From positions 1 through 19,521 of the forward strand of contig JACPHL010000098.1 in assembly GCA_016188625.1 (NCBI GenBank): a stretch of 19,521 nt of DNA, written 5' to 3'. Numbering within the stretch: position 1 is the first letter of the stretch; every line of letters begins with the position of its first letter. This DNA is from Candidatus Rokuibacteriota bacterium (lineage in GTDB: Bacteria > Methylomirabilota > Methylomirabilia > Rokubacteriales > JACPHL01). The notes under the pieces were generated by a model. The model saw nothing but the letters and a program-made list of their open reading frames with translations. It was not told where the DNA came from and did no database searches. Below, in pieces: positions 687 to 18,427 of this stretch. Both the position numbers and the translations under genes were made by a program.

Positions 687-767
687 GGCTGTGCGCTTTT
701 GCGCTCTGGGCCCTCGGCTCGCGGATGGATGGTCCGCTCCGAGCGCGGGCTTCGACCGCGCAACCTT

Positions 768-808
768 GGGGGGAGGTCTCGGAAGGGGGGTGTAACCCCC
801 CTCCGAGT
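768..808 (-). repeat. Intergenic hairpin repeat, copy A
   Basis: The palindrome has arms CTCGGAAGGGGGG and CCCCCCTCCGAG around a TGTAA loop, flanked on the left by GGGGGGAGGT. Its reverse complement matches the copies at 2430-2471 and 16416-16458 over about 41 nt with only a few differences, mostly in the loop. This copy lies in the rsmI-thiD gap, upstream of the thiD promoter, in the opposite orientation to the other copies relative to the plus strand. There is no U-tract, so it is not a standard intrinsic terminator. Confidence 0.85.
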
Positions 809-812
809 GTTC

Positions 813-841
813 TTGAGGGTCCTCTACCGCTGGTCTATACT
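813..841 (+). promoter_or_regulatory. Sigma70-type promoter for thiD-tatC
   Basis: TTGAGG (813-818) and TATACT (836-841) are separated by 17 bp, close to the sigma70 consensus and conspicuous in this GC-rich background. Transcription would begin near 848, giving a leader of roughly 33 nt before the thiD ATG at 881. No TPP riboswitch core fits in this short leader. Confidence 0.65.
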
Positions 842-880
842 GGGGGTCGTGACCGCCGAAACCCTCTGCCTCCGCGCGCG

Positions 881-1672
881 ATGTCCGCGATCCCCAAGGC
901 CCTGACGATCGCCGGATCGGACTCCGGCGGCGGGGCCGGGATCCAGGCCGACCTGAAGACCTTCACGGCCTTCCGGGTCTACGGCGTCTCGGTCCTCACC
1001 GCGATCACGGCCCAGAACTCCCTCGGGGTCCAGGGGGTCCAGAACCTCCCGCCCGAGTTCGTGGCCCGCCAGCTCGAGTCGGTCCTCGGGGACATCGGCG
1101 CCGACGCGGTCAAGACCGGGATGCTCTCCACCGCCCTGATCATCCGCGCGGTCGCCTCCGGGCTCCGCGAGCACCGCGTCGAGCGGCTCGTCGTGGACCC
1201 GGTGATGGTCGCGAAGTCCGGCGATCCCCTCCTCGAGCCCGAGGCCCGGGCGGCCCTGGTCCGGGAGATCCTTCCGCTCGCCCTGGTGGTGACCCCGAAC
1301 CTCCACGAGGCGGCTGCCCTGGCCGGGCTCCCGGTGGGGACCCCCGAGGAGATGGAGGAGGCCGCCCGGCGCATCCACCGGCTCGGCCCCCGCCACGTCC
1401 TGGTCAAGGGCGGCCACCTGAAGGGGGATGCCCTTGACCTGCTCTTCGACGGCCAGGCCTTCATCCCCTTCCGCGCCGAGCGGATCCCCACGCCGCCCAC
1501 CCACGGGACCGGCTGCACCTATTCGGCGGCCATCGCCGCGGGCCTGGCCCGGGGCCTCCACCTCTCCGAGGCGGTGGGCGAGGCCAAGCGCTACGTGACC
1601 CGGGCGATCCGCGAGGGGTTCGCCGTCGGCCGGGGGGTCGGCTCCCTGCGCCACTTCCTGGAGGGCTGGTGA
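881..1672 (+). CDS. thiD: Hydroxymethylpyrimidine/phosphomethylpyrimidine kinase ThiD
   Basis: This cytosolic ribokinase-fold kinase phosphorylates HMP and then HMP-phosphate to HMP-pyrophosphate for thiamine synthesis. The 263-residue protein starts [18 protein letters not shown]. It carries the substrate motif [63 protein letters not shown] and the C-terminal anion-hole/catalytic signature [17 protein letters not shown]. The ATG at 881 is chosen because homology begins there and the promoter lies just upstream; the open frame reaches back to 725 but would run through the hairpin repeat. There is no obvious Shine-Dalgarno sequence. The stop overlaps the tatC ATG by one base (TGATG), implying translational coupling. 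Confidence 0.95.
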
Positions 1673-2397
1673 TGGCGCGCCATGTGACCGACGCTCAGAT
1701 GCCGTTCCTCGCCCACCTGGGGGAGCTCCGCAAGCGGATCATCTGGACCGTGGCGGCCATCGGCCTCGGCTTCGTGGCGACGTTCTCCTTCTCGGAACGG
1801 ATCGTCACGTTCCTGGCCCGACCGCTACCGGCGAAGCTCGTCGCCCTCGCGCCGGTGGAGACCCTGTGGGTCAACATCAAGGTCGCGATGCTCGCCGGCT
1901 TGTTCCTCACGCTGCCCTTCGTCCTGTACCAGGTCTGGGCCTTTATCGCCCCGGGGCTGCACCGACACGAGCGCCGCTTCGCCATCCCCTTCGTCCTCGT
2001 CGGGACGGTGCTCTTCACCATCGGTGGGGCCTTCTCCCTCCTGGTGGTCGTCCCGTTCGCCAGCCAGTTCCTCTGGACCTACAAGACCGCTGACGTCATC
2101 ATCCCGATGTGGTCGGCGAATTTCTACATCGGCTTCGTCGTCCGCTTCACGTTCGCCTTCGGGCTGGCCTTCCAGCTCCCGCTCGCCGTGACCCTGGCCG
2201 CCAAGATGGGGCTCGTGACCCCGCAGTTCCTGGCCAAGAACCGGAAGTACGCCGTCCTCTTCTGTGCCATCGCCGCGGCCATCTTGACGCCGACGCCGGA
2301 TGCCTTCAACATGATGTTGATGGCCGGCCCGATGTACGTCCTCTACGAGGTGGGGATCATCGCCGCCCGGCTCTTCGGCCGGCGGTTCCCCAAGTAA
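1672..2397 (+). CDS. tatC: Sec-independent protein translocase subunit TatC
   Basis: TatC is the integral-membrane receptor of the twin-arginine pathway. It binds RR signal peptides and recruits TatA/TatB to export folded, often cofactor-bearing proteins. The 241-residue protein has the N-terminal signature FLAHLGELRKRII, the first periplasmic-loop motif FIAPGLHRHERRF, six predicted hydrophobic segments and the late motif ILTPTPDAF followed by GPMYVLYEVG. The ATG at 1672 shares its A with the thiD stop; an in-frame GTG at 1669 is possible but less likely. No tatA/B gene is present here. Export of molybdenum or tungsten enzymes, for which this window has uptake genes, commonly uses Tat, but no functional link is shown. 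Confidence 0.95.
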   Translation: MARHVTDAQMPFLAHLGELRKRIIWTVAAIGLGFVATFSFSERIVTFLARPLPAKLVALAPVETLWVNIKVAMLAGLFLTLPFVLYQVWAFIAPGLHRHERRFAIPFVLVGTVLFTIGGAFSLLVVVPFASQFLWTYKTADVIIPMWSANFYIGFVVRFTFAFGLAFQLPLAVTLAAKMGLVTPQFLAKNRKYAVLFCAIAAAILTPTPDAFNMMLMAGPMYVLYEVGIIAARLFGRRFPK

Positions 2398-2429
2398 CCC
2401 CTTGCGCCTCCCCGGTGCTTCTGCTAAAA

Positions 2430-2471
2430 GACTCGGAGGGGGGCTAACGCCCCCCTTCCGAACCTCCACCC
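2430..2471 (+). repeat. Intergenic hairpin repeat, copy B
   Basis: The element is a GACTCGGAGGGGGGC arm, a TAAC loop and a GCCCCCCTTCCGA arm followed by ACCTCCACCC. It is nearly identical to copy C at 16416-16458 and to the reverse complement of copy A. It lies 32 bp past the tatC stop and runs up against the first recognisable PC4 codons, so it is the natural suspect for the missing 5' end of that gene. Confidence 0.88.
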
Positions 2472-2475
2472 AGGG

Positions 2476-2703
2476 GAGCGCCGGGTCTCGCTGCGCGAGT
2501 ACCGCGGCCACCCGTTCATCGATATCCGGGTCTACTACAAGCCGGCCGAGGGCGAGCCGGGGCCCACCCGCAAGGGGGTCACCCTCAACCCGGAGCTCTA
2601 CCCCGAGCTGAAGAAGGCCCTCCTGGCCCTGGAGCACGCCCTGGTGAAGCACCGCCTCCTGGACCGCGAGGCCATCGAGGCCGCGATGGCGGAGGAAGGG
2701 TAA
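2476..2703 (+). CDS. PC4/p15 transcriptional coactivator-like protein, no canonical start codon
   Basis: The reading frame gives ERRVSLREYRGHPFIDIRV, then YYKPAEGEPGPTRKGVTLN, then a helical C-terminus ending EAAMAEEG. The VSLREYRG, IDIRVYY and PTRKGVTL pattern is that of the PC4/Sub1 single-stranded nucleic-acid-binding fold, which has bacterial members that bind ssDNA as dimers. In-frame upstream there is a TAA at 2425-2427, then the hairpin repeat, and no ATG, GTG or TTG before the domain begins; the first GTG (about 2644) is far inside it. The gene therefore either uses a rare start codon, has lost its 5' end to the repeat, or carries a sequence error. Fifteen bases separate its stop from the helicase gene. 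The domain call is fairly secure; whether it is expressed is not. Confidence 0.65.
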   Translation, partial: ERRVSLREYRGHPFIDIRVYYKPAEGEPGPTRKGVTLNPELYPELKKALLALEHALVKHRLLDREAIEAAMAEEG

Positions 2704-2718
2704 GGCGTTTCCGCCCCG

Positions 2719-3975
2719 ATGAGGTTCCAGGACCTGGACCTCCCCGCCCCGGTCTTCCAGGGGATCGGGGCCGCGGGGTTTGAGGTCCCGACCCCGATCC
2801 AGGAGGCCGCCCTCCCCGTCGCCCTCAAGGGGAAGGACGTCGCGGGCCAGTCCCAGACCGGGACCGGGAAGACCGCCGCGTTCCTCATCGCCCTCTTCAC
2901 GCGCCTCCTCCGCACCCCGCCGCCGCCCCCCGGGCCGACGACCGCGCCGCGGGCCCTCATCATCGCCCCCACCCGCGAGCTGGTGGTCCAGCTCGAGGCC
3001 GACGCCCGGCTCCTCGGGCGGTTCACCGGCCTCCGGATCGTCGCCGTCTACGGGGGGGTGGACTACGCCCGCCAGCGTGAGGCCCTGCACCAGCCCACGG
3101 ACCTCCTCGTCGGGACCCCCGGGCGCCTCATCGACTATCTGAAGCAGCGGGTCTGGTCGCCGGCCCGGGTGGAGGTGCTGGTCATCGACGAGGCGGACCG
3201 GATGTTCGACATGGGGTTCATCGCCGACATCCGCTACCTCTGCCGCCGCCTGCCGCCCCCCGAGCGGCGCCAATCCTTCCTCTTCTCGGCCACGCTCTCC
3301 TTCCGCGTCCTCGAGCTGACCTGGGAGTTCATGAACAACCCCACGCAGATCACCGTGAGCGGCCGGCAGCTCACCGTGGAGCAGGTCGAGCAGCTCCTCT
3401 ACCACGTGGGGCGGCACGAGAAGCTCCGCCTCCTCCTGGGGCTCCTGGCCCGGGAGGGCGGGGAGCGGGTGCTGATCTTCACCAACACCCGCGCCGAGGC
3501 CGCCCGCCTGGTGGAGCGCCTCCGGCGGAACGGCCGGGAGGCTCGGGCCCTGACCGGCGACCTCGACCAGCGGCAGCGGCTCCGGACCCTGGCGGCCTTC
3601 AAGGAGGGGCGGCTGCCCATCCTGGTGGCGACCGACGTCGCCTCCCGCGGGCTCCACATCGAGGCGGTGAGCCACGTCATCAACTGGGATCTCCCCCAGG
3701 ACGCCGAGGACTACGTCCACCGGATCGGCCGGACCGCCCGGGCCGGGGCCGCGGGGAAGGCGATCAGCCTGGTGGACGAGCGGAGCGCGTTCGGGCTCGA
3801 GGCGGTGGAGCGGCTGATCGGGCAGCGGATCCGGGTGGAGTGGGCCGAGGACGACCTCTTCCTCCCCGAGGTCAGGCCGACCGCAGAGGAGCGCCGGCGG
3901 TTCGCCGAGGAGCGGACCGCCCGCGGCCATCCGCGGGACCGGGGCCGGGGCGGGCCCCGCCGGTCGCGGCGCTGA
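2719..3975 (+). CDS. rhlB: DEAD-box ATP-dependent RNA helicase, RhlB-like
   Basis: This 418-residue RNA helicase has two RecA domains. In the first: F3 and GFEVPTPIQ of the Q motif, Walker A QTGTGKT (about 46-52), PTREL (84-88), TPGR (133-136), DEAD (157-160) and SAT (190-192). In the second: FTNTRAEA, ATDVASRG (304-311) and HRIGRTARAG (334-343). Details such as DVAGQSQTGTGKTAAF, RLIDYLKQ, RMFDMGFIADIR and the SFRVLEL segment after SAT resemble Escherichia coli RhlB more than RhlE, CsdA or DbpA. The C-terminal tail is short, basic and Arg/Gly-rich, typical of nonspecific RNA binding. RhlB partners RNase E in gammaproteobacteria; whether that holds here is unknown. The placement next to a PC4-type nucleic-acid-binding gene is suggestive only. 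Confidence 0.92.
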   Translation: MRFQDLDLPAPVFQGIGAAGFEVPTPIQEAALPVALKGKDVAGQSQTGTGKTAAFLIALFTRLLRTPPPPPGPTTAPRALIIAPTRELVVQLEADARLLGRFTGLRIVAVYGGVDYARQREALHQPTDLLVGTPGRLIDYLKQRVWSPARVEVLVIDEADRMFDMGFIADIRYLCRRLPPPERRQSFLFSATLSFRVLELTWEFMNNPTQITVSGRQLTVEQVEQLLYHVGRHEKLRLLLGLLAREGGERVLIFTNTRAEAARLVERLRRNGREARALTGDLDQRQRLRTLAAFKEGRLPILVATDVASRGLHIEAVSHVINWDLPQDAEDYVHRIGRTARAGAAGKAISLVDERSAFGLEAVERLIGQRIRVEWAEDDLFLPEVRPTAEERRRFAEERTARGHPRDRGRGGPRRSRR

Positions 3976-3982
3976 ACAGCCC

Positions 3983-5523
3983 GTGTTCGACGTCCTGATC
4001 CGGGGCGGGACGGTGGTGGACGGCACGGGCGCGCCCGCCCGGCCAGCGGACGTCGCGGTCGAGGGCGGGCGGGTCGTCGCCGTCGAGCCGCGCCTCGCTG
4101 CGGAAGGCCGCCGCACCCTCGAGGCCGACGGCCTGCTGGTCGCCCCGGGGTTCATCGACATCCATACCCACTCGGACTTCTTCCTCCTCCAGGTCCCCTC
4201 GGCCGAGTCGAAGCTCCGCCAGGGGGTGACCACCGAGGTGATCGGGATGTGCGGCTTCTCCCCGGCCCCGGCGGTCCCCGAGCGCCTGGCCCTCCTCCAG
4301 GATCACGTGGCCTTCCTCGCCCCCCGGCTCCCCTGGGACTGGCGCGGCTTCGGGGAGTGGTGCGCGCGCCTCCGGGGGGCGGGGCTCTCGGTGAACGTGG
4401 TCCCCTTCGTGGGGCACGGGGCGATCCGGATCGCGGCCATGGGCTTCGAGCGCCGCCCCCCGACCCCCGAGGAGCTCCGGACGATGGAGGCCCTGGTCGC
4501 CCGGGCGATGGACGAGGGGGCGTTCGGACCGCCGCCCCACCCGCCGTCGGCGTTCTGCGCGCCGAACAGCCAGCGCAGACCCCGGCGGCGGCAGGAATCG
4601 GCCAGTTCTGATCCGCAGAGGCGATCGCGATCGGGGAGGCCGCGGGATGCCCGGTCCAGATCGCCCATCTCAAGGCCGCGGGGCGGGAGAACTGGCCGAA
4701 GATGGAGGCGGCCCTCCGCGCCCTCGACGCCGCCCGGGCCCGGGGGGTCGAGGTGACGGCGGACATCTACCCCTACACCGCCGGCTCAACGACCCTGTCG
4801 AGCCTCCTCCCCCCGTGGATGCACGACGGCGGCATGCCGCGTCTCCTCGAGCGGCTCGCCGATCCGGCGAGTCGGCGGCGGCTCCTCGACGAGTGCGCGG
4901 TCGGCGACGAGGGGTGGCTCGCCGCCAACGGCCGCACCACCTGGGAGGAGGTCCTGATCGCGGGGGCGCCGGCCTGTCGCGAGGCGGAGGGGCAGACCCT
5001 GGCGGCCCTGGCACAGACCCGCGGGCGGCCGGGCGCGGAGGTCCTGATCGAGGTCCTCCTCGAGGCCCGCGGCGCGGTGACGATGGTCCACTTCCTCATG
5101 GCCGAGGGGAACGTCGCCCGGGGGCTCGCCCACCCGCAGGTCATGGTCGGCTCGGACAGCCTCGGCCTCGCCGCCGGGCCGGGCCCCCATCCGGGCCGCC
5201 CCCATCCGAGGATGTACGGGACCTTCCCGCGCGTGCTCGGGACCTACGTCCGGGAGCGGCGCCTCCTCGGCTGGGAGGAGGCGATCCGCAAGATGACCGG
5301 GATGCCGGCCGCCACGCTCGGCCTCCGCGACCGCGGGGTGATCCGCCCCGGGGCGGCGGCGGACCTGGTGGTCCTCGACCCGGCCACCGTGGCCGACCGC
5401 GCCGGCTACGAGGCGCCGCATCGGTATCCCGAGGGGATCCGGTGGGTCCTGGTCAACGGCGCGGTGGTCCTGGACGACGGCGTCATGCGCCCGGTCCCGG
5501 CGGGGCGGGTGCTGACTCCCTGA
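3983..5523 (+). pseudogene. N-acyl-D-amino-acid deacylase (D-aminoacylase), disrupted
   Basis: This is an amidohydrolase-superfamily metalloenzyme that removes the acyl group from N-acyl-D-amino acids. The N-terminal half (GTG at 3983) has FDVLIRGGTVVDGTG, the metal-binding DIHTHSD, the GMCGFSPAP cysteine block and VPFVGHGAIR, and is intact to MDEGAFG ending near 4528. Homology resumes in another frame at about 4615 with AEAIAIGEAAGCPVQIAHLK and continues through VTADIYPYTAGST, MVGSDSLGLA, MYGTFPRVLG, MTGMPAATLGL and GAAADLVVLDP to the stop at 5521-5523. About 48 conserved codons, including the region that carries SHIRGE in relatives, are replaced by about 86 unrelated bases with a frame change, so no full-length enzyme can be made. 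Either the gene is dead or the assembly joined two molecules here. Confidence 0.85.
4525..4614 (-). other. Embedded terpene-cyclase/prenyltransferase QW-repeat fragment
   Basis: The minus strand of this segment reads LRWLFGAQNADGGWGGGP (4578 down to 4525). This is a textbook QW motif (Q-x3-GGW type) of squalene-hopene cyclase and prenyltransferase/squalene-oxidase repeat proteins. It occupies exactly the stretch where the deacylase gene loses its own sequence, and has no continuation of that family on either side. It is interpreted as a short foreign fragment joined into the deacylase, by recombination or by misassembly. A chance match cannot be excluded at this length, although the motif is specific. 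Confidence 0.5.
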
Positions 5524-5545
5524 GCCCGGCCCGGGGCCCATCCCC

Positions 5546-5575
5546 TTGACAGTGCGCCGGTCGCCGTGGTAAGCG
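5546..5575 (+). promoter_or_regulatory. Promoter of the molybdate/tungstate operon
   Basis: A perfect -35 TTGACA (5546-5551) is followed after 17-18 bp by a weak -10 (GTAAGC or TAAGCG around 5569-5575). The expected start point near 5582 abuts the palindromic operator. The -35 plus weak -10 arrangement resembles the second promoter at 9776, which has a much better -10. Confidence 0.55.
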
Positions 5576-5582
5576 TAGGGCT

Positions 5583-5606
5583 CGATATGTCGGGTCAAAC
5601 ATATCG
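5583..5606 (+). promoter_or_regulatory. ModE-type operator (24-bp palindrome)
   Basis: Perfect 8-bp half sites CGATATGT and ACATATCG flank an 8-bp spacer. The total length of 24 bp and the outer CG..TAT / ATA..CG pattern match the known Escherichia coli modA operator (half sites CGTTATAT and ACATAACG with the same spacing). It is an AT-rich island in GC-rich DNA, immediately downstream of the predicted transcription start and before a ModE-like gene. Repression by its own product when oxyanion is plentiful is inferred. Confidence 0.75.
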
Positions 5607-5625
5607 CCGGCGGCGCCTCCTCGAG

Positions 5626-5952
5626 GTGAAGACCAAGGTCTGGTTCGAGGCCGGGGGACGGTTCGTGCTCGGCGAGGGCGGGATCGCCCTGCTCGACGCC
5701 ATCCGGGAGCTGGGCTCGATCCAGCAGGCGGCCCGCCGGCTCGGCTGGTCCTACCGCCACACCTGGGGGTACATCCGGAACATGGAGGAGAGCGCCGGGG
5801 TCAGGTTCATCGAGCGGACCCGGGGCGGCCGGGCCGGCGGCGGGGCCCGCCTCACCCCGGAGGGAAAGGAGTTCCTGCGCCGGTACGGCACCTTCCGCCG
5901 CGCGCTGGCGCGGCTGGTGGACGGGCGGTTCCGGAGGGTGTTCTTGGCTTAG
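5626..5952 (+). CDS. ModE-like winged-helix transcriptional regulator (HTH domain only)
   Basis: This small DNA-binding protein (108 residues from GTG 5626) matches the N-terminal domain of ModE, the LysR-like winged helix that controls molybdate genes. Features are FVLGEGGIALLDAIRELGSI, the helix-turn-helix around QQAARRLGWSYRHTWGYIRNM (about 33-53), and the wing FIERTRGGRAGGGARLT (about 61-77), whose R-G-G-x-x-G-G-G-A-x-L-T is diagnostic. It has no C-terminal Mop/TOBE ligand domains. In-frame starts also exist at ATG 5587 and GTG 5566, but these lie inside the operator and the promoter respectively; none of the three has a clear Shine-Dalgarno sequence. It heads the operon with MOT1 and TupABC and probably autoregulates through the adjacent palindrome. 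Confidence 0.88.
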   Translation: MKTKVWFEAGGRFVLGEGGIALLDAIRELGSIQQAARRLGWSYRHTWGYIRNMEESAGVRFIERTRGGRAGGGARLTPEGKEFLRRYGTFRRALARLVDGRFRRVFLA

Positions 5953-5989
5953 GCGGCGCGGTGCTTTCCTCTGTGCGACGAGAGCGGGG

Positions 5990-7120
5990 ATGAGGATCGG
6001 CGGGAACGACTACAGCTTGCGCGAGCTGGCCGGGGCCTTCGGCGATCTCGGCACCCTCATCCCCTTCCTCGTAGGCTACATCACCATCACCGGGATGGAC
6101 CCGGTCGGGGTCCTCGTAGCCTTCGGGCTCTTCAAGATCGTCGCCGGGCTCTACTTCAAGACCCCCGTCCCGGTCCAGCCGATGAAGGCGATCGGCACGG
6201 CCGCGATCAGCCATCCGGGCGTGATCACCCCCGGTGCCATCTGGGCCTCCGGGCTGTTCACCGGACTCCTCTGGCTGGCGATGGGGCTCACGGGCGCGGT
6301 GACCTGGATCGCCAGGATCACGAGCCGTCCCGTCGTCCACGGCCTCGTCCTCGGCCTGGGGCTCGGGTTCATCCTCCAAGGGGTCAAGCTGATGGAGGGG
6401 GATCTCCTCCTGGCCGCGGTCGCCGTCGCCCTGACCTTCGTCCTGCTCTCCCTGGAGCGGGTGCCGGCGATGCTCCTCCTCCTCGCCTTCGGCGTGACCG
6501 TGGCCGTGGTCCGCGAACCCGTCCTCCTGGGCGAGCTGGCGCGGCTTTCGTTTCACCTGCGGCTCCCCGCCTTCGGCTTGACCGGGATCGGGTGGGGAGA
6601 CCTCGCGACGGGCGTGATCGTCCTCGGTCTCCCCCAGGCGGCGCTCACGCTGGGAAACGCCATCGTCGCCTTTACCGAGGAGAACAACGCCCTTTTTCCG
6701 AACCGGCCTGTGACCGTGAGGGCGATCGCGGTCAACCACGGGATCATGAACCTCGTCGGGACCAGTATGAGCGGCGTGCCGATGTGCCACGGCGCCGGAG
6801 GGATGGCGGGCCACGTCCGGTTCGGCGCCCGCACCGGCGGGGCCCTGGTGATCCTCGGGAGCCTCATCCTGTTCATCGGGCTCTTCCTGGCCGACTCGGT
6901 GGAGACGCTGTTCAAGCTCTTTCCCCAGGCGCTCCTGGGCGTGATCCTCATGTTCGCGGGGCTCGAGCTGGCTGCCGGCGTTCAAGGGAACCACTTCGAC
7001 CGGAGAGACCGGTACGTCATGCTCCTCGCCGCAGGGGTGGCCATGTGGAACATGGGCGCCGGCTACCTGGCCGGGATCGCCCTGTGGCACGCCTTCCACC
7101 GGGGATGGCTGAAGGCCTGA
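5990..7120 (+). CDS. MOT1-family molybdate (sulfate-like) transporter
   Basis: This 376-residue polytopic inner-membrane protein is related to plant/algal MOT1 molybdate transporters and more distantly to SulP permeases. It has about ten hydrophobic segments and the family signatures FGDLGTLIPFLVGY, TPVPVQPMKAIGTAAIS, a late PQAALTLGNAIVAFTEEN and VPMCHGAGGMAGHVRFG. There is no STAS domain, as expected for MOT1. It would import molybdate as a secondary transporter. It lies 37 bp after the ModE-like gene and 2 bp before the likely tupA start, so it is in the same operon. Combining a secondary MOT1 carrier with a Tup ABC importer under one ModE-type site suggests two uptake routes with different affinity or metal preference; this is an inference. 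Confidence 0.88.
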   Translation: MRIGGNDYSLRELAGAFGDLGTLIPFLVGYITITGMDPVGVLVAFGLFKIVAGLYFKTPVPVQPMKAIGTAAISHPGVITPGAIWASGLFTGLLWLAMGLTGAVTWIARITSRPVVHGLVLGLGLGFILQGVKLMEGDLLLAAVAVALTFVLLSLERVPAMLLLLAFGVTVAVVREPVLLGELARLSFHLRLPAFGLTGIGWGDLATGVIVLGLPQAALTLGNAIVAFTEENNALFPNRPVTVRAIAVNHGIMNLVGTSMSGVPMCHGAGGMAGHVRFGARTGGALVILGSLILFIGLFLADSVETLFKLFPQALLGVILMFAGLELAAGVQGNHFDRRDRYVMLLAAGVAMWNMGAGYLAGIALWHAFHRGWLKA

Positions 7121-7122
7121 GG

Positions 7123-7981
7123 GTGAGCCCTTCGCGCGACGCAAGGGGGGACGGGCTCGCGTGGGGCCTGGCGCTGGTCGCCTTCCTCCTGCTGGCGGTC
7201 CCGGCCCTCGGCGAGCCCCGGCGCCCGGTCATCCTGGCCACCACGACCAGCACCCTGGACTCGGGGCTCCTGGACGTCCTGGTCCCGCTCTTCGAGCGGC
7301 GGGCCGGCTACACGGTCAAGACCATCGCGGTCGGGACCGGCCAGGCCCTCCGGATGGCCGCCCGGGGGGACGCCGACGTCATCCTGGTCCACGCGCCCGA
7401 GCTGGAGGCCGGGTACGTGGCGGAAGGGGCCCTCATCCGCCGCCGCCGCGTCATGCACAACGACTTCGTCCTCGTCGGGCCGCCGGCCGACCCCGCCGGG
7501 GTCAGGGGCGCGAGGGCCGCGGGCGAGGCCTTCCGGCGGATCGCCGAGCGGGAGGCGCGGTTCGTCTCCCGGGGCGACGACTCCGGAACCCACCACAAAG
7601 AGCGCGCCCTCTGGAAGGCCGCCGGCGTCGCCCCCAGAAGGGGGTGGTACATCGAGTCGGGGCAGGGGATGGGCGCCACGCTGACCATCGCCGACGAGAA
7701 GGGCGCCTACTCCCTGACCGACCGGGCGACCTACCTGGCCTTCAGGAAGCGGCTCCAGCTGGCCGTCCTCCTCGAGGGGGACGCCCCGCTCCTGAACATC
7801 TACCACGTCATGGAGGTCAACCCGGCCAGGCACCCGCGGGTCAACGCCGAGGGGGGGAGGGCCTTCGCGGAGTTCCTGCTCTCGCCCGAGGCGCAGGCGG
7901 CGATCCGGACCTTCGGCGTCGAGGGGTACGGCGAGCCGCTCTTCTTCCCCGACGCGGTGAGGCCGGCGCCGGGCGGCGGAG
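7123..7981 (+). CDS. tupA: Tungstate ABC transporter substrate-binding protein TupA, no in-frame stop at its expected end
   Basis: This is the periplasmic/lipid-side oxyanion-binding subunit of the tungstate importer. The GTG at 7123 gives a signal peptide with hydrophobic core LALVAFLLLAVPALG and likely cleavage before EPRRP; an ATG at 7105 inside the mot1 end is an alternative. The mature protein has the TupA motif ATTTSTLDSGLL, IAVGTGQALRMA, DADVILVHAPELE, HNDFVLVGPPADP, SRGDDSGTHHKE, GMGATLTIADEKGAYSLTDRATY and the C-terminal YGEPLFFPDA. Relatives stop shortly after FFPDA. Here the frame stays open across all of tupB in the wrong frame and into tupC. A TGA at 7958-7960 would end the protein right after PDA if one base of the preceding GG were absent. 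The end given is approximate. Confidence 0.9.
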
Positions 7982-8674
7982 ATGGAGCTGATCTGGGAGG
8001 GGATCCGGCACGCGCTCTGGCTCCTGTTGACGGCCGACCCCGAGGTCCTCGGGATCACCTGGCTCTCCCTCCAGGTCTCGGGGCTGGCCACGCTCGCCTC
8101 GCTGGCGGTGGGGGTCCCGCTCGGGACCCTCATCGCCCTGACGCGCTTCCCCGGCCGCGGGCTGGTGGTGAGCCTCGTCAACACCGGGATGGGCCTGCCG
8201 CCGGTCGTGGTCGGGCTCTTCGTCTCGATCTTCCTCTGGCGGAGCGGCCCCCTGGGGGCGCTCGAGCTCCTCTACACCCCCACGGCCATCGTCATCGCCC
8301 AGTTCGTCATCGCCGCGCCCATCGTCACCGGCCTGGCCCTCGCCGCGGTCCAGCAGATCCCCCCCGGCTTCCGCCTCCAGATGCTGGCCCTCGGGGCCTC
8401 CCGGCCCCAGCTCCTCTGGCTCCTCGCCCGCGAGGCCCGCCTGCCGATGCTGGCCGCGGTCATGGCCGGCTTCGGCGGGGTGATCTCGGAGATCGGGGCC
8501 TCGATGATGGTGGGCGGCAACATCCGCGGCCAGACCCGGGTGCTCACCACGGCGACGGTCCTGGAGACCGGGAAGGGGAACTTCGATGTCGCCATCGCGC
8601 TGTCGCTCATCCTGCTGGCCATCGTCTTCCTCGTGAACTGGGCGCTCACGGGCCTCCAGCAGCGCCGGGCGTGA
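7982..8674 (+). CDS. tupB: Tungstate ABC transporter permease TupB
   Basis: This 230-residue inner-membrane permease forms the TupBC importer, passing oxyanion from TupA to the cytosol. It has about five to six hydrophobic segments, starting with ITWLSLQVSGLATLASLAVGV, then NTGMGLPPVVVGLFVSIF and AQFVIAAPIVTGLALAAV. It has the cytoplasmic EAA loop LALGASRPQLLWLLAREARLP that docks on the ATPase, then GGVISEIGASMMVGGNIRGQTRVLTTA, a signature shared by Tup and related oxyanion permeases. The ATG at 7982 lies at the expected end of tupA. The stop overlaps the tupC GTG (GTGA at 8671-8674). Confidence 0.93.
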   Translation: MELIWEGIRHALWLLLTADPEVLGITWLSLQVSGLATLASLAVGVPLGTLIALTRFPGRGLVVSLVNTGMGLPPVVVGLFVSIFLWRSGPLGALELLYTPTAIVIAQFVIAAPIVTGLALAAVQQIPPGFRLQMLALGASRPQLLWLLAREARLPMLAAVMAGFGGVISEIGASMMVGGNIRGQTRVLTTATVLETGKGNFDVAIALSLILLAIVFLVNWALTGLQQRRA

Positions 8675-9804
8675 GGGGCGTGGGGACGAGCGCGCCGGTC
8701 CTGGAAGGGCGGGGGCTTCGGGTCGTGGCGGACGGCCGCCCGCGGCTCGAGGTCGAGGCCGTCGCCGTCCACGAGGGGGAGGTCCTCGCGATCATCGGCC
8801 CCAACGGGGCCGGGAAGTCCACCCTGCTCCGGATCCTCGGCCTGCTCGAGCCGCCGACCGCGGGCGAGGTGCGCTTCCGCGGCGAGCCGGTCGGCGCCGG
8901 GGCCTCGCTCCTCGCCCTCCGTCGGCGCATGGCCTCGGTCTTTCAGGAGCCGCTCCTCTGCGACACCACGGTCCTCCGGAACGCCCGCCTCGGGCTCGCC
9001 CTCCGGGGCGTCCCGGACGCGGAGGCCGACCGGCGCGTCCGGCCGTGGCTCGAGCGGCTCGGGATCGCCCCCCTGGCCGGCCGCTCGGCCCGCACGCTCT
9101 CGGGCGGGGAGGCCCAGCGGACGAGTCTGGCCCGGGCCTTCGCCGTCGAGCCGGAGGTCCTGCTCCTCGACGAGCCGTTCTCGGGGCTGGACCCTTCCGC
9201 GCGCGAGGCGCTCCTCGGCGACCTGGAGCGCATCCTCCGGGAGACGGGGACGACCACGGTCTTCGTCACCCACGACCGGGACGAGGCCATCCGCCTCGGC
9301 GACCGGGTGGCGGTGATGATGGGCGGCAGGATCCTCCAGCTCGCCCGGCCGGAGGAGGTCTTCGCCGCGCCGGTGAGTGAGGAGGTGGCCCGCTTCGTCG
9401 GGGTGGAGAACATCCTGGCCGGCGAGGTCGCGGATCAGGGGGAGGGGCTCCTCGAGGTTCGGGTCGCCGACCGGAGCCTGCTCGTCGTCGGGGAGGCGGC
9501 CCGGGGCGAGCGGGTGCTGCTCTGCCTCCGCCCCGAGGACATCGTTTTGGGGCCGGCCCCTGCCGCGGGGCCCACCAGCGCCCGCAACGCCCTGCTCGGC
9601 AAGGTCGTCCGGCTCGTCCCCGTCGGCGTCCTTTGGCGGGTGGTGGTGGACTGCGGGTTCCCGCTCACGGCCCTCATCACCCGCCCCTCCATCGACGCGC
9701 TCGGGCTCGAGGAGGGACGCGAGGTGGTGGCCGGGTTCAAGGCGACGGCGGTCCACCTCCTCCGGCGGGGCCGGCTTGACAGGCGCCCCGGGGGGTTGGT
9801 ATAA
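8671..9804 (+). CDS. tupC: Tungstate ABC transporter ATP-binding protein TupC with C-terminal TOBE domain
   Basis: This 377-residue cytoplasmic ATPase powers TupB. It has Walker A GPNGAGKST (about 43-51), Q-loop FQEP (Q92), signature LSGGEAQR (143-150), Walker B VLLLDEP (163-169) and H-loop THD (H201). A C-terminal region of about 70 residues (ARNALLGKVVRLVP to VAGFKATAVHLL) is a TOBE/Mop-like oxyanion-binding domain, as in ModC-type ATPases, that could sense intracellular oxyanion. The GTG at 8671 overlaps the tupB stop; GTG 8680 is an alternative. The reading frame is the same as that of tupA with no stop between them. The TAA at 9802-9804 overlaps the -10 of the next promoter. Tungstate rather than molybdate specificity rests on the TupA/TupB partners. 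Confidence 0.92.
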   Translation: MRGVGTSAPVLEGRGLRVVADGRPRLEVEAVAVHEGEVLAIIGPNGAGKSTLLRILGLLEPPTAGEVRFRGEPVGAGASLLALRRRMASVFQEPLLCDTTVLRNARLGLALRGVPDAEADRRVRPWLERLGIAPLAGRSARTLSGGEAQRTSLARAFAVEPEVLLLDEPFSGLDPSAREALLGDLERILRETGTTTVFVTHDRDEAIRLGDRVAVMMGGRILQLARPEEVFAAPVSEEVARFVGVENILAGEVADQGEGLLEVRVADRSLLVVGEAARGERVLLCLRPEDIVLGPAPAAGPTSARNALLGKVVRLVPVGVLWRVVVDCGFPLTALITRPSIDALGLEEGREVVAGFKATAVHLLRRGRLDRRPGGLV

Positions 9805-9805
9805 G
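9776..9805 (+). promoter_or_regulatory. Strong sigma70-type promoter at the end of tupC
   Basis: A perfect TTGACA (9776-9781), an 18-bp spacer and TATAAG (9800-9805) lie over the last codons and stop of tupC. This is the best promoter match in the window. Transcription would start near 9812 and meet an intrinsic terminator about 100 nt later. Confidence 0.75.
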
Positions 9806-9811
9806 TGAGAG

Positions 9812-9912
9812 TACGTCCGAGGCCGAACGTCGTGCCCGGGAGGCGCGAGTGTTGAGGCAAGGAGAATCGATGGTGAGGCCAGCAGCCGGCGACACTGCTG
9901 GCCCTTTTTGTT
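9812..9912 (+). ncRNA. Candidate small RNA or transcription-attenuated leader
   Basis: The promoter at 9776-9805 and the terminator at 9877-9911 bound a transcript of about 100 nt. The 5' half can form ACGT..ACGT pairing (around 9813-9830) and a CGTGCC / GGCGCG stem with a CGGGA loop. A less structured purine-rich stretch with AAGGAGA follows, then the terminator hairpin. It matches no RNA family I recognise; SRP, 6S, tmRNA, RNase P, TPP, Moco, fluoride and c-di-GMP motifs were considered and do not fit. It is either a free-standing sRNA or a riboswitch/attenuator leader for the DUF465 gene whose ATG is at 9948. Confidence 0.45.
9877..9911 (+). terminator. Rho-independent terminator
   Basis: A perfect 9-bp stem, GGCCAGCAG with CTGCTGGCC around a 9-nt loop (9877-9903), is followed by CTTTTTGTTTTC. 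It is the only canonical stem plus U-tract in the window. It lies between the promoter at 9776 and the DUF465 start, so it acts either as the end of a short RNA or as an attenuator; it would also end tupC read-through. Confidence 0.88.
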
Positions 9913-9947
9913 TTCAGGCACTTCCGCGCACCCCAAAGGAGGGGAAT

Positions 9948-10184
9948 ATGAGCGATCGCGAGGCTCTGGTCGAGCGGCTCATGCATGAGAGCGAGGAGTT
10001 CCGGCGGCTCCGGGAGGAGCACCAGCGCTACGAGCAGGAGATCTCGGAGCTCCAGGGCCGCCACTACCTCTCCGCCGACCAAGAGTGGCGCGTCAGCGAG
10101 CTGAAGAAGCGGAAGCTCATGACGAAGGACCGGATGGAGGCGTTGATCCGCCAGGCCGGCCAGACCTCTTCCTCTCGAGCCTGA
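9948..10184 (+). CDS. DUF465 (YdcH-like) small coiled-coil protein
   Basis: This 78-residue hydrophilic protein starts MSDREALVERLMHESEEFRR and continues with LREEHQRYEQEISELQGRHYLS and EWRVSELKKRKLMTKDRMEALI. The pattern of E-F-x-x-L near the start, H-x-x-Y-E-x-E-I, then the E-W-x-V-x-x-L-K-K-x-K-L-x-x-K-D-x-M block is that of DUF465/YdcH. These proteins are predicted as a helical hairpin and their function is unknown. The ATG at 9948 follows a near-perfect AAAGGAGG with good spacing. An in-frame ATG at 9870, itself preceded by AAGGAGA, would add 26 residues encoded across the terminator hairpin; this is probably not the main start. Transcription must either pass the terminator or start at an unseen promoter after 9911. 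Confidence 0.85.
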   Translation: MSDREALVERLMHESEEFRRLREEHQRYEQEISELQGRHYLSADQEWRVSELKKRKLMTKDRMEALIRQAGQTSSSRA

Positions 10185-10205
10185 TCCCCCGGGAGTCCCC
10201 CCGCG

Positions 10206-10727
10206 ATGGGACCTCCGCGAAAGGGGGATGAGTCCCCCGCGCCCGACCAGTCTGGCCTCACCCATCTCGACGCCGAGGGGAAGGCGCGGATGGTGGACGT
10301 CACCGCCAAGGCCGAGACCGCCCGGGAGGCGCGCGCCCGCGCCACGCTCCGGATGCGCCCGGAGACCCTGGCCGCCATCCGGGCCGGGGAGGTCGCCAAG
10401 GGGGACGCCCTCGGCGTGGCGCGCCTCGCCGGGATCATGGCGGCCAAGCGGACCGCCGAGCTGATCCCCCTCTGCCACCCCCTCCGGATCACCGGGATCG
10501 AGGTCACCTTCGAGCTGGACGAGGCGGCCTCCGCGGTCCGGATCGAGAGCCGGGTCCGGACCGTGGACAAGACCGGGGTGGAGATGGAGGCGCTGGCGGC
10601 CGCGGCGGTGGCCGGGCTGACCGTCTATGACATGGTCAAGGCGATCGACCGGGGGATGGTCCTCACCGACGTCGGCCTCGTCGAGAAGGCGGGCGGGCGG
10701 AGCGGGCACTGGGTGCGCGAGCCGTGA
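10206..10727 (+). CDS. moaC: Cyclic pyranopterin monophosphate synthase MoaC
   Basis: MoaC acts with MoaA to convert the GTP-derived 3',8-cyclic intermediate into cyclic pyranopterin monophosphate, the first pterin of molybdenum/tungsten cofactor synthesis in the cytosol. Family motifs are [64 protein letters not shown], the active-site [30 protein letters not shown] and [10 protein letters not shown]. The only in-frame standard start close to the domain is ATG 10206. It adds a 17-residue leader, [17 protein letters not shown], that other MoaC proteins lack and whose DNA contains a hairpin similar to the intergenic repeats. It follows the DUF465 gene by 21 bp and overlaps the deacetylase start (GTGA). 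Proximity to the MOT1/Tup operon makes functional sense. Confidence 0.95.
10219..10247 (+). repeat. Degenerate hairpin repeat inside the moaC leader, copy F
   Basis: GGGGGA and TCCCCC (10223-10238) form a perfect 6-bp stem around TGAG, preceded by CGAAA. In the moaC frame it encodes [10 protein letters not shown]; the copies in A orientation would encode RKGGVSPPPS in the equivalent frame. The similarity is partial, so membership of the repeat family is tentative. Confidence 0.35.
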
Positions 10728-11851
10728 GGACCGCCCTCGTCTACACCGACGGCTACGCCCGGTACGACTACGGGCCCGAGCATCCGCTCCGCATGGCGCG
10801 CCTCCGGCTGACCTTCGAGCTCATGGAGGCCCTTCAGCTGACGGCCCTCCCGGAGACGAAGCTCCTGATCCCCGAGCCGGCCCCCGAAGCGGCGCTGCTG
10901 GGCTTCCACACCGCCGAGTACCTCGAGGTCCTCCGGGCGGCGAGCCAGGGGCTCGCGCTCCCGGCCCCGTACCGCTACGGGCTCGGCCCCGGCGACAACC
11001 CGATCTTCCCCGGCCTCTGGGAGGTCGCGACGCTGATCGCGGGCGGCTCGCTCTTGGCCGCCCGCCTGGTCGCCGACGGCGAGGCGGAGCGTGCCTTCCA
11101 CTTCGCCGGCGGGCTCCACCACGCCATGCCGGATCGCGCCTCGGGGTTCTGCTACATCAACGACGCCGTCCTCGCCATCCAGGCGCTGGTCGGCCGCGGC
11201 CTGCGCGCCCTCTACATCGACATCGACGCCCATCACGGCGACGGGGTCCAGCACGCCTTCTACCGGACGGACCGGGTCCTGACCATCTCCACCCACGAGC
11301 GCGGCGACCGGCTCTTCCCTGGCACCGGCTTCGTGGAGGAGCTGGGGGAGGGGCCGGGGCGCGGCTACAGCGTCAACCTCCCCCTCCACCCCGGGACCGA
11401 CGACGAGGTCTACCTGGAGGCCTTCGAGACCGTGGTCCCGCCCCTGGCCTCGGCCTTTCGTCCCGACGTCGTGGTGACCCAGCTCGGGATCGACGGCCAC
11501 CGGACCGACCCCCTCACCCATCTCGCCCTCACCGTGAACGGCTTCGCCCGGGCGGTGCGCCGCATCCTCGCCCTCGCCCCCCGCCTGGTGGCCCTGGGCG
11601 GCGGCGGGTACGACCTCGGCAACGTGGCGCGCGCCTGGAGCATCGCCTGGGCCCTGATGAACGAGGTCGAGCCGCCCGACCGGCTCCCCGAACCGTTCCT
11701 CCGGGCCTCCGGGCGGTTCTTCCGCGCCCCGGAGCTCTGGGACCCCCCTTCGCCTGAGCCCCCCGCGGCCCGGCACGCTGCCCGCGCCTTCGCCCAGCGC
11801 CAGGTGGAGGCGATCCGGCGCACCATCTTCCCGCTGCACCGCCTCGCCTGA
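10724..11851 (+). CDS. Class I histone deacetylase-like protein, AcuC type
   Basis: This 375-residue arginase/deacetylase-fold zinc hydrolase removes acetyl groups from lysine or small amide substrates. Visible features are [12 protein letters not shown] near the N-terminus, the active-site histidine pair [17 protein letters not shown] (H132-H133), the zinc ligands in [11 protein letters not shown] (D168, H170) and [12 protein letters not shown] (D257), and the catalytic tyrosine in LGGGGYD (Y296), so all catalytic residues are present. The domain order and IND/HHGDGV motifs are closest to AcuC, which in Bacillus deacetylates acetyl-CoA synthetase. No acsA or acuA acetyltransferase gene is nearby, so the substrate is unknown. 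The GTG start overlaps the moaC stop, indicating coupled translation. It is followed by hairpin repeat D, 2 bp past the stop. Confidence 0.9.
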
Positions 11852-11853
11852 CG

Positions 11854-11885
11854 CCTCGGAGGGGCGCGCGAGCCCCCCTCCGAGG
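11854..11885 (+). repeat. Intergenic hairpin repeat, copy D (diverged)
   Basis: Arms CCTCGGAGGGG and CCCCCCTCCGAGG surround a GC-rich loop. The outer CTCGGAGGGG / CCCCTCCGAG arms are the same as in copies A-C, while the loop and the right-hand flank differ. It starts 2 bp after the deacetylase stop, in the same orientation relative to the upstream gene as copies B, C and E. Confidence 0.7.
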
Positions 11886-11894
11886 TCGAAGACG

Positions 11895-11923
11895 TTGAGC
11901 CCGCCCCGGCTCTGTGCTAAGGT
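11895..11923 (+). promoter_or_regulatory. Possible promoter for tmk-holB-ricT-metG
   Basis: TTGAGC (11895-11900) and TAAGGT (11918-11923) are separated by 17 bp. The -10 is weak, but an A-run follows and the spacing to the tmk ATG at 11952 leaves a leader of about 20 nt. It sits right after hairpin D. Confidence 0.4.
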
Positions 11924-11951
11924 TGAAAAAATCCCTGGATGCGAGCGGACG

Positions 11952-12563
11952 ATGCCGGGGCGCTTCATCACCGTCGAGGGCGTGGAGGGGGCCGGGAAGA
12001 CGACCCAGATCCGGCTTCTGGCAGGGTGGCTCCGCGCCCGAGGCCACCGGGTCCGCGAGACCGCCGAGCCCGACGGGACCCGGCTCGGGGCGGCGATCCG
12101 CGCGCTCTTCGCTACGGCCCCGGGCCCTGAGCCGTTGGCCGAGGCGTTCCTCTTCGCGGCCGCCCGCCGCCAGCACGTGGTGGAGGTGATCCGACCGGCC
12201 CTGGCCGCCGGGGAGATCGTCCTCTCCGACCGCTTCGCCGACGCCACGCTCGCCTATCAGGGTTACGGTCGCGGCATCCCCTTGGGCGCCATCGAGGCCC
12301 TCAACCAGCTCGCCACCGAGGGGCTCCGGCCCGACCTGACCGTGCTCCTCGACCTGGATGTCGCCACGGGGCTCGCCCGCCTCGAGGCGCGCCCCCTCGA
12401 CCCCTTCGAGGCACTCGGGCTCGACTTCCACGAGCGGGTGCGGAAGGGGTACCTCGAGCTGGCCGGCCGCGAGCCCGACCGGTTCGTCGTCATCGACGGC
12501 CACCGCCGGCCGGAGGAGGTCCAGGCGGCGATCCGGGAGGCGGTCGGACGCCTCCTCCGATGA
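11952..12563 (+). CDS. tmk: Thymidylate kinase
   Basis: This kinase phosphorylates dTMP to dTDP with ATP for DNA synthesis. The 203-residue protein has the P-loop GVEGAGKTTQ (10-19), the segment ETAEPDGTRLG where most family members have R-E-P-G-G-T, the base/phosphate motif LSDRFADATLAYQGYGRG (DRF at 93-95), VLLDLDVATGLAR and the lid/C-terminal RPLDPFEALGLDFHERVRKGYLELA. The Gly-to-Asp change in EPDGT (residue 41) is unusual in a tightly conserved loop; the rest of the active site looks normal. ATG 11952 is chosen by homology; an upstream in-frame TTG at 11895 overlaps the presumed -35. It heads the tmk-holB-ricT-metG-tatD block, an order also seen in Bacillus. Confidence 0.94.
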   Translation: MPGRFITVEGVEGAGKTTQIRLLAGWLRARGHRVRETAEPDGTRLGAAIRALFATAPGPEPLAEAFLFAAARRQHVVEVIRPALAAGEIVLSDRFADATLAYQGYGRGIPLGAIEALNQLATEGLRPDLTVLLDLDVATGLARLEARPLDPFEALGLDFHERVRKGYLELAGREPDRFVVIDGHRRPEEVQAAIREAVGRLLR

Positions 12564-12619
12564 GTCACCCGCCTCTCTCTGTCGTCACCCAACCTCGGCC
12601 CCGGGCGGTGGGGGGGGTT

Positions 12620-12646
12620 GGGGGAGGAGCGATGCCGCTCCCCCCC
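12620..12646 (+). repeat. Hairpin between tmk and holB, next to the holB ribosome-binding site
   Basis: GGAGCG and CGCTCC pair around ATGC, extended by outer GGGGG and CCCCC with one bulged A, giving about 11 bp. The holB Shine-Dalgarno (AAGGTGG) follows immediately. It differs from the dispersed repeats A-E in sequence. The rest of the 94-bp tmk-holB gap holds a GTCACCC direct repeat and G-runs. Confidence 0.5.
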
Positions 12647-12657
12647 AAGGTGGACCA

Positions 12658-16413
<3,756 letters not shown>

Positions 16414-16415
16414 TA

Positions 16416-16458
16416 GACTCGGAGGGGGGCTGACGCCCCCCTTCCGATACCTCCCCCC
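16416..16458 (+). repeat. Intergenic hairpin repeat, copy C
   Basis: The element is a GACTCGGAGGGGGGC arm, a TGAC loop and a GCCCCCCTTCCGA arm, then TACCTCCCCCC ending at the base before the tatD ATG. Together with copies A and B it defines a unit of about 41-43 nt. It begins 2 bp after the metG stop and fills the whole metG-tatD gap, leaving no room for a normal Shine-Dalgarno sequence before tatD. Confidence 0.9.
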
Positions 16459-17241
16459 ATGATTCTCTTTGACACCCACGCTCACCTCCACCTCCCCGAG
16501 TTCGACGCCGATCGCGCGGAGGTCCTGGCGCGGGCGCGCACCGCAGGGGTCCACGGCTTCCTCACCGTCGGGATCGACGCCGAGGACTCCGCCAAGGCCG
16601 TGGCGCTCGCCGAGGCCGCGCCCGACGTCTGGGCCGCGGTCGGGATCCACCCCCACGAGGCGGCGGGCGCCGACGAGGCGGCCCTGGAAACCGTCCGGCG
16701 CCTGGCCCTCGGCTCGGCCAGGGTGGTCGCCATCGGCGAGACCGGGCTCGACTACTACCGAAACCTCTCCCCCCGCTCCGCCCAACTCGAGGCCTTCCGC
16801 CGCCAGCTCGCCCTGGCCCGGGAGCTCGGCCGCCCCGTCGTGGTCCACTGCCGGGAGGCGCACGCCGACGTGCTGGGCATGCTCCGGGAGGAGCGGGTCG
16901 GCGAGGTGGGCGGGATCATGCACTGCTTCTCGGGGGACGCCGCCGCCGCGCGGAGTTGCCTCGACCTCGGCCTCGGGATCTCGCTCGCGGGGCCTGTCAC
17001 CTACCCGAACGCGCGGAAGCTCCCCGAGGTCGTCCGGGCGGTCCCCCTCGAGTGGCTCCTCGTCGAGACCGACTGCCCCTTCCTGCCGCCCCAGCCCTAC
17101 CGCGGCAAGCGGAACGAGCCGGCGTGGATGGTCCACACCGCCGGGCAGGTCGCGGCCTTCAAGGGGGTGTCGTTTGCGGAGCTGGCCGTCCGGCTCACCG
17201 AGAACGCCCGGCGACTCCTCCGCCTCCCGCCCGCAGAATGA
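16459..17241 (+). CDS. tatD: TatD-family metal-dependent hydrolase/DNase
   Basis: This 260-residue TIM-barrel amidohydrolase is related to TatD/YcfH 3'-5' DNases with proposed roles in DNA repair and quality control. Metal ligands are visible in FDTHAHLHL (H7, H9), AIGETGLDYY (E94), VVVHCREAH (H130), IMHCFSGD (H155) and LVETDCPFL (D205). The C-terminal QPYRGKRNEP block and the helix ending NARRLLRLP are typical. ATG 16459 is fixed by the DTHAHL position; the upstream sequence is the hairpin repeat, with no Shine-Dalgarno. The gene follows metG as in many bacteria. Despite the name it is not needed for Tat export. The stop overlaps the ATG of the next gene (ATGA). Confidence 0.92.
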   Translation: MILFDTHAHLHLPEFDADRAEVLARARTAGVHGFLTVGIDAEDSAKAVALAEAAPDVWAAVGIHPHEAAGADEAALETVRRLALGSARVVAIGETGLDYYRNLSPRSAQLEAFRRQLALARELGRPVVVHCREAHADVLGMLREERVGEVGGIMHCFSGDAAAARSCLDLGLGISLAGPVTYPNARKLPEVVRAVPLEWLLVETDCPFLPPQPYRGKRNEPAWMVHTAGQVAAFKGVSFAELAVRLTENARRLLRLPPAE

Positions 17242-18182
17242 GCCTTCGCGACCTCCGCCTCTTTCTGGGGGGCGCCCTCAACATCGGCGCGGCCCGGGTC
17301 CTCAACGCCGCCCGCCCAGCCCGGCCGGTGACCCCGCTTTCCCTCGAGGGCTATCTCGGCCTCGCCGCCCCCGAGCCGCTCGACACGGTCCGGCTCCTCG
17401 AGGGGCGCTCGAACCGGGATCGTCTGGCCACGCTCCTCCGGCTCCTCGAGGCCCGGGGGATCCCCCATCGCCGCCTCCCCTACCGGAGCCTCGAGGGGTC
17501 CGGGGAGAACCTCGTGCTCGAGGCCGGGACGGACGGGCGGGTCCTGCTCCTGGCCGGCCATCACGACGCGGTGCCGGGGAGCCCGGGGGCCAACGACAAC
17601 GCCGCGGCGGTCGCCATCCTGCTCCGGCTCCTCGAGCGCCTGCTCGACGACCCGCCGCGGCGCTTCCGCGTCCGGGTGGTCATCTTCGGGGATGAGGAGA
17701 AGGGGTTCCTCGGCTCGCGCGCCTACGTCCGGGCCGCGCCCCTGGACGACCTCCTCGGGGTCGTGAGCCTCGAGCTCTGCGGGATCGGCGACGGCCTGGC
17801 CCTCTGGGACGTCGAGCCCGAGGCGGGGAGCCGTCTGGCGCGCGCCTTCGCCGCCACGGCGGAGGCGCTCGGGTACCGGCGGGACGAGGGGTATCACCTG
17901 GTGGGGCGGATCCCCCTCTTCGGGAGCGATCACCGCCCCTTCGCGGCCCGCGGGATCCCGGCCTACGGCCTCACGGTCATCCCGAACGCCGCCCGCGAGG
18001 CGCTCCGGAGTTTCATCTTCCGCCCCCTGCGCCCGGCGCTGCTGCTCCCGGCCCGCCGGCCCCCGCCGTTCAGGACCTACCACACCCCCCTCGACCGCGC
18101 CGACACGCTGGAGCCGGCCGCGCTCGGACGCGTCGGGGCGCTGCTCGAGGCGCTCTGCCGGGAGCTGGACACCGGGGCGTGA
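17238..18182 (+). CDS. M28-family zinc metallopeptidase (aminopeptidase-like)
   Basis: This 314-residue M28 di-zinc exopeptidase-type protein has zinc ligand candidates in LLAGHHDAVPGSPGANDNAAA (H108, D110, D120), FGDEEKGFLGS (E153-E154, general base and ligand), the later LFGSDHRPF aspartate/histidine and TYHTPLDRAD histidine near the C-terminus. This is the usual HxD...D...EE...D...H order. The N-terminal 30 residues are weakly hydrophobic without a convincing signal peptide, so a cytosolic or membrane-attached location is undecided. It shares ATGA overlap with tatD, indicating coupled expression. The exact substrate is not recognisable; aminopeptidase or glutaminyl-cyclase-like activity are both possible in M28. 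Confidence 0.85.
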   Translation: MSLRDLRLFLGGALNIGAARVLNAARPARPVTPLSLEGYLGLAAPEPLDTVRLLEGRSNRDRLATLLRLLEARGIPHRRLPYRSLEGSGENLVLEAGTDGRVLLLAGHHDAVPGSPGANDNAAAVAILLRLLERLLDDPPRRFRVRVVIFGDEEKGFLGSRAYVRAAPLDDLLGVVSLELCGIGDGLALWDVEPEAGSRLARAFAATAEALGYRRDEGYHLVGRIPLFGSDHRPFAARGIPAYGLTVIPNAAREALRSFIFRPLRPALLLPARRPPPFRTYHTPLDRADTLEPAALGRVGALLEALCRELDTGA

Positions 18183-18395
18183 GGGCTGCGTGGGCAAGGG
18201 GTGTGTTAGGGGGGGGAGGCGTCGGTCCCGAGCGGAACGTTAAGCGGAGCGGCGCGGGTCCCCGTCGTGAGCGAGCCGGATGGGGAAGCCGACAGGCGGG
18301 CGGAGGACAAAGAGGAGGGGCCCCGGCCGGCGAGCCACAGACGGGTGCGCCGCGGAGCGTGTGGAGCGAGGGGTCGATGCCTCCCACGGGGCAGT
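18183..18395 (+). other. Intergenic segment between the M28 gene and the DUF2007 gene
   Basis: These roughly 213 bases carry no convincing protein on either strand and no tRNA or known RNA core. The left end (around 18206-18225) has GGGGGGGGAGGCGTCGG, similar to the outer flank of the hairpin repeats. The rest is purine-rich on the plus strand. The two converging genes on either side would both terminate here. Confidence 0.4.
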
Positions 18396-18423
18396 CAGGA
18401 GCGGGGCGGAGCCCCCCTCCGAG
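18396..18423 (-). repeat. Intergenic hairpin repeat, copy E (diverged)
   Basis: The right arm GAGCCCCCCTCCGAG is conserved with copies A and D; the left arm (AGGAGCGGGGC) is degenerate but aligns without gaps over 28 nt with copy C read on the opposite strand. On the minus strand it follows the DUF2007 stop by 4 bp, so it has the same stop-proximal position and orientation as copies B, C and D. Confidence 0.6.
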
Positions 18424-18427
18424 GGTC

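Follow-up and report, generated by a model that had tools for sequence, protein, structure and literature searches.

Five hairpins in one contig

The window analysed here, a stretch of 19,521 nucleotides, is the entire contig C226 of a Candidatus Rokuibacteriota genome (2.6 Mb, 344 contigs, 84% complete). A sequence-only reading had placed five copies of a GC-rich hairpin, hereafter M1, along this window and described them as lacking a U-tract. All five were found again in the window sequence, none with a U-tract, and their fold energies range from −19 to −28 kcal/mol, with four of the five beating every shuffled control.

Between the TP_methylase and thiD genes (named from Pfam), a full-length element of what we call type A occupies about 670..808 on the minus strand, with its M1 hairpin at 779-805. 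Its right-end motif lies 116 nt from M1 and runs into the 3′-terminal part of the methylase gene upstream, the stop of which is 17 nt inside the right end, and the final codons of that gene, CCG TCC GAG TAA, are contained within the element. The copy at 2430-2471 belongs, by sequence alignment, to a truncated element on the plus strand (2424..2475) that consists of M1 and a CCTCC spacer; here the tatC stop (2395-2397) is ~33 nt upstream, and a CTAA at 2424-2427 stands 8 nt before TCGG. After this copy, positions 2472-2702 hold an open frame (translation GERRVSLREYRGHPFIDIRVYYKPAEGE...) that looks protein-coding by eye, in which no ATG, GTG or TTG start is plausibly placed, the element occupying the expected start position; the piece of this frame that we scanned gave no Pfam match. 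Folding and Pfam place a diverged, symmetric M1 hairpin at 11852..11885 (plus strand), 2-5 nt past the TGA with which a histone-deacetylase-like gene ends. At 16411..16458 (plus strand; fold, alignment and Pfam), a truncated element made of M1 and ACCTCCCCCC fills the complete gap from a methionyl-tRNA-synthetase-like (metG-like) gene to tatD, starting 6 nt past the stop. The last copy is a minus-strand composite at 18194..18427 (alignment and Pfam), in which a diverged M1 (18396-18423) comes 4 nt after the TAA that ends a minus-strand DUF2007 gene (stop at 18428-18430) and leads into a long palindromic module (type D). This module of ~200 nt (18194-18395 in the window) ends in GGGAGGCRYCGRYCCC and recurs in several contigs of the same genome, often joined to M1 and also solitary. 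The proposal that the hairpins follow a stop codon in the orientation of the gene holds for the copies at 2430-2471, 11854-11885, 16416-16458 and 18396-18423, but not for that at 768-808, which is on the minus strand and follows no such stop.

Architecture, copy number and turnover of the element

From about 1.0 Mb of the same genome we could draw the anatomy of the repeat, in which the M1 hairpin forms the left end of a palindromic, modular element of ~140 nt. The left end reads [AC]CTCGGAGGGGGG-loop-CCCCCCTTCCGA and is followed by a spacer, CCTCCCCCC, a second covarying hairpin and the right end, TTACTCGGACGGGCTCC; for 17 of 21 right ends the distance to the M1 start is 114-119 nt, which gives full-length copies a fixed size. 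The same left end also precedes other interiors, named types B to E. What had been taken for the repeat unit is real, but it is only the left end of the element, and the full element, its preference for the trimer TA[AG] (TAR) and its copies beside start codons had all gone unmentioned. Pairing is maintained between copies, and the advised check for compensatory changes bears this out: in helix 2 a G-C pair has become C-G in 13 copies and another pair has gone from C-G to G-C in 2, the closing C-G of helix 1 is U-A in 3 copies, and the two stems together hold 18 double-changed cells versus 5.0 in shuffles, although, since the copies are related, this covariation backs pairing during spread and not many independent events. 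Terminal inverted repeats amount to an imperfect match seen by eye only (G[TA]GCC..TC.GAG), and left and right termini gave no covariation signal within a copy under a loose right-end filter. Covariance models of Rfam returned no match at E up to 1. Short, discrete and non-coding, with fixed ends and many copies, the unit is in these respects like a MITE.

The suggestion of a dispersed family was borne out by a whole-genome count, in which a strict pattern gave 82 forward and 80 reverse matches, whereas the reversed control pattern gave 0; each symmetric hairpin contributes two matches, and we estimate the number of loci, which is lower, at roughly 120-140. All 18 GTDB stretches that matched a closely related pattern are titled Candidatus Rokuibacteriota. 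The 59 genomes compared within a single order hold between 0 and about 187 copies each, with patchy numbers even inside one genus, and in some of them the count includes a second hairpin type, M1′. This sister hairpin, CGGAGGGGGCCTCGACGGCCCCCTCCGA, was observed in four genomes (G005, G007, G011 and G013), where it stands in place of M1, or together with it, at orthologous positions. We also observed that several contigs of this assembly stop no more than about 300 nt from an M1 element (for example L052, L088, L094, L106 and L108), and the repeat thus probably fragments assemblies. In the papers searched, nothing on such repeats in Rokubacteria was found.

Whether copies come and go was assessed by searching 16 loci of the genome G007 in its congener G005, where 14 were closely matched. 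Seven of these keep M1, some with other modules gained or lost, while at three G005 has M1′ in its place or fused to it. At the remaining four M1 is absent from G005, an insertion polymorphism that could also reflect deletion in G005. In two of the M1-less alleles the TA belonging to the stop is retained (CAGTA|ACCTCGG versus CAGTA|GACGG, and GCCTAG|CAGACTCGG versus GCCTAG|AGCGGA). When the two ends of 16 full-length copies were compared, direct repeats were in excess over shuffled pairs (P = 0.0065), under a match rule that was settled on after the ends had been looked at. No hairpin was seen at the metG-tatD junctions of relatives, which at ~60-69% protein identity are too distant for exact junctions. 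The many copies, their patchy numbers and their presence or absence between congeners make mobility probable. The element family is, in our assessment, real, so far phylum-restricted, probably mobile and unusually prone to adjoin coding boundaries.

Stop codons, TAR and start codons

Genomic context was read from gene calls made with a home-made, simple codon-model caller; about 20 of the contigs used, or about a third, were picked for holding copies, so that the context counts come from a biased sample; the stop-codon and TAR comparisons are independent of that choice. Among 68 oriented copies, 39 lie in co-directional gaps, 16 in convergent gaps, 12 beside contig ends and 1 in a divergent gap. 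In most same-strand cases M1 starts 2-8 nt past the stop, and this 3′-end bias supports the earlier expectation of a placement that is non-random with respect to genes. The stops beside M1 are TAA or TAG in 47 of 59 cases versus 303 of 904 elsewhere (P = 3.6 × 10−12). Copies without a called stop nearby also have a TA[AG] within 14 nt upstream (17 of 28, versus 4.6% of intergenic windows; P = 3 × 10−16), and the trimer stands mostly 8 nt before TCGG, at copies without a near stop as well. Since TAR is kept upstream of copies that have no stop nearby, it looks like an insertion target here. The second genome, G007, has TAR upstream of 18 of 30 copies (P = 2 × 10−15), while in other Rokuibacteriota contigs (3 of 21 copies, P = 0.08) the enrichment is not clear; from sequence, TAR thus looks like an insertion target in two lineages, and not yet phylum-wide. 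At three G007 loci (L208, L221 and L222) we observed a separate palindromic repeat of ~85 nt, CTAGTGCCGTTCCAACT...AGTTGGAACGGCACTAG, at CTAG stops adjoining M1 elements, which has the look of a further MITE family that shares the preference for CTAG.

The left end of the element is also crowded by starts on the opposite strand, with 39 within 60 nt and 23 at 1-10 nt in the genome of the window, G007 and other contigs together; no comparable crowding at starts occurs at the right end. Most copies at 1-10 nt from starts lack TAR, which therefore does not explain them. Read on the strand of the starting gene, the order is GGGGGGAGG, the M1 hairpin, a few bases and the start codon. In 20 of the 23 copies the linear distance from GGAGG to the start is 35-40 nt, which shrinks to 7-13 nt when the hairpin is excluded; one further copy has a spacing of 3 nt, probably through a start call that came too early, and the other two lack a GGAGG close by. 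This geometry raises the possibility, which we put forward tentatively as an added function and not as an alternative origin, that start-adjacent copies form split ribosome-binding sites, the hairpin joining GGGGGGAGG to the start. A hairpin is reported to separate the SD from the start codon and to shorten the effective spacing in genes 38 and 25 of phage T4 (PMC3014915), the same arrangement as that predicted here, and at L224/L245 the hairpin differs between congeners while the start-side architecture is kept. On the other side, the predicted accessibility of the SD in start-adjacent copies averages only 0.35, the two copies without a close GGAGG do not fit, and by a crude test only about half of the genes have an SD-like motif, so an SD may not be required. 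The constant element itself supplies the SD, so that finding one there adds no independent evidence, and this together with the low accessibility keeps the split site at the level of a proposal.

A probable mobile element and its possible roles

We consider it likely that Candidatus Rokuibacteriota carry a family of short, modular, non-coding mobile elements, with M1 as their conserved left end, that are inserted in trans beside TAR, and most likely these are non-autonomous, MITE/REP-like elements. A trans-acting enzyme would insert the element next to TAR, a trimer that would be rare in this GC-rich genome and supplied mainly by TAA and TAG stops, and copies would hence collect 2-8 nt past stops. 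The stop would be kept or re-formed at the insertion junction, and the element would fill the gene junction with both neighbours unbroken.

Two other accounts have to be weighed against such a mobile element. The hairpins could be functional 3′-end elements under selection, with each gene owning its copy as a non-canonical terminator, an mRNA stabiliser or a ribosome-stalling hairpin; non-canonical 3′-end signals had been one reading offered from the window. Very strong hairpins just past stops speak for it, as does the occupancy of 16 of 50 convergent versus 1 of 84 divergent gaps (about a third of the contigs having been chosen for holding copies), and ribosome stalling has been reported for E. 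coli REPs that lie no more than 15 nt from a stop (PMC12306157). Close relatives nevertheless manage with 0-3 copies, the elements occur in both orientations, many adjoin start codons and TAR persists without stops. Nor do the sequences after M1 resemble those of an intrinsic terminator, M1 being followed by CCTCCCCCC or similar with no U-tract, and loose terminator-scanner matches at two copies are on the opposite strand or have a T-poor tail. A general excess of stop-adjacent hairpins was considered and rejected, as there is none beyond M1 and its variants. We regard a 3′-end signal as an unlikely primary role, and secondary effects on termination or translation as possible.

Still less probable, in our view, are classical REP elements moved by a RAYT (Y1 HUH) transposase. 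The likeness to REPs that had been pointed out is sound as regards dispersed, probably mobile palindromes: the M1 repeats are short, intergenic and high in copy number, have a one-base bulge in the stem and a 3′-end bias, and form mosaic combinations with hairpin swaps, as BIMEs do. The association with a RAYT did not hold up. Y1_Tnp (PF01797) has no match in this 84%-complete genome, where a search for a RAYT-like transposase had been advised, nor in six high-copy relatives (G003, G005, G025, G035, G039 and G048), whereas G045 has three matches and zero copies of the element; over 59 genomes copy number shows no association with the presence of Y1 (P = 0.48). The aligned flanks carry neither the GTAG nor the CGTC tag of REPs (PMC3733652) at the hairpin base, where CTCGG stands with variable bases outside it. 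The two defining marks of RAYT-type REPs, tag and transposase, are thus both missing. Other partners were sought in this 84%-complete genome: IS4/IS5 and IS630 were rejected because DDE_Tnp_1 (PF01609), DDE_Tnp_1_2 (PF13586) and DDE_3 (PF13358) have no match, and an IS91-like partner because the one weak, apparently degraded match to Y2_Tnp (PF04986), on contig C299, has no element ends around it.

Set beside known systems, the mobile element that we favour resembles Correia/NEMIS and RUP, MITEs with TA-type targets, in being non-coding, under 200 nt, present in many copies, bounded by TA and inserted beside genes (PMC2229807). It differs in being GC-rich, in its weak terminal inverted repeats and strong end hairpin, and in a left end set tight on coding boundaries, and no related IS was found among the families searched. 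With the GTAG and CGTC superfamilies of REP/BIME it shares high-copy palindromes, a preference for co-directional and convergent gaps and mosaic arrays (PMC3733652), whereas its unit of ~140 nt has a defined right end and neither their tag nor a RAYT link. The CIR repeats of Caulobacter are likewise intergenic stem-loops that have MITE features in part and lack a known mobiliser (PMC2229807); they belong to a different phylum, and the likeness is drawn at the level of description. The T4 genes 38 and 25 share the spacing-shortening hairpin that parts SD and start (PMC3014915), which in Rokuibacteriota would sit on a dispersed repeat and is predicted only. Taking the two sides together, it is conceivable, if slightly more doubtful than the split site itself, that this phylum-specific mobile element offers a ribosome-binding site (GGGGGGAGG, bridging hairpin and start) on one strand while abutting a stop on the other, and would so act as a gene-junction module that can transpose, rewiring operon junctions with neither gene broken.

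The element probably represents a mobile repeat that colonises a compact, GC-rich genome by way of rare TAR trimers supplied by stops, and for an uncultured phylum it provides a high-copy marker of genome change. It also counsels caution, in that hairpins adjacent to stops need not be terminators. If the start-side architecture works, Rokuibacteriota would have a hairpin-bridged ribosome-binding site that is carried on a mobile repeat.
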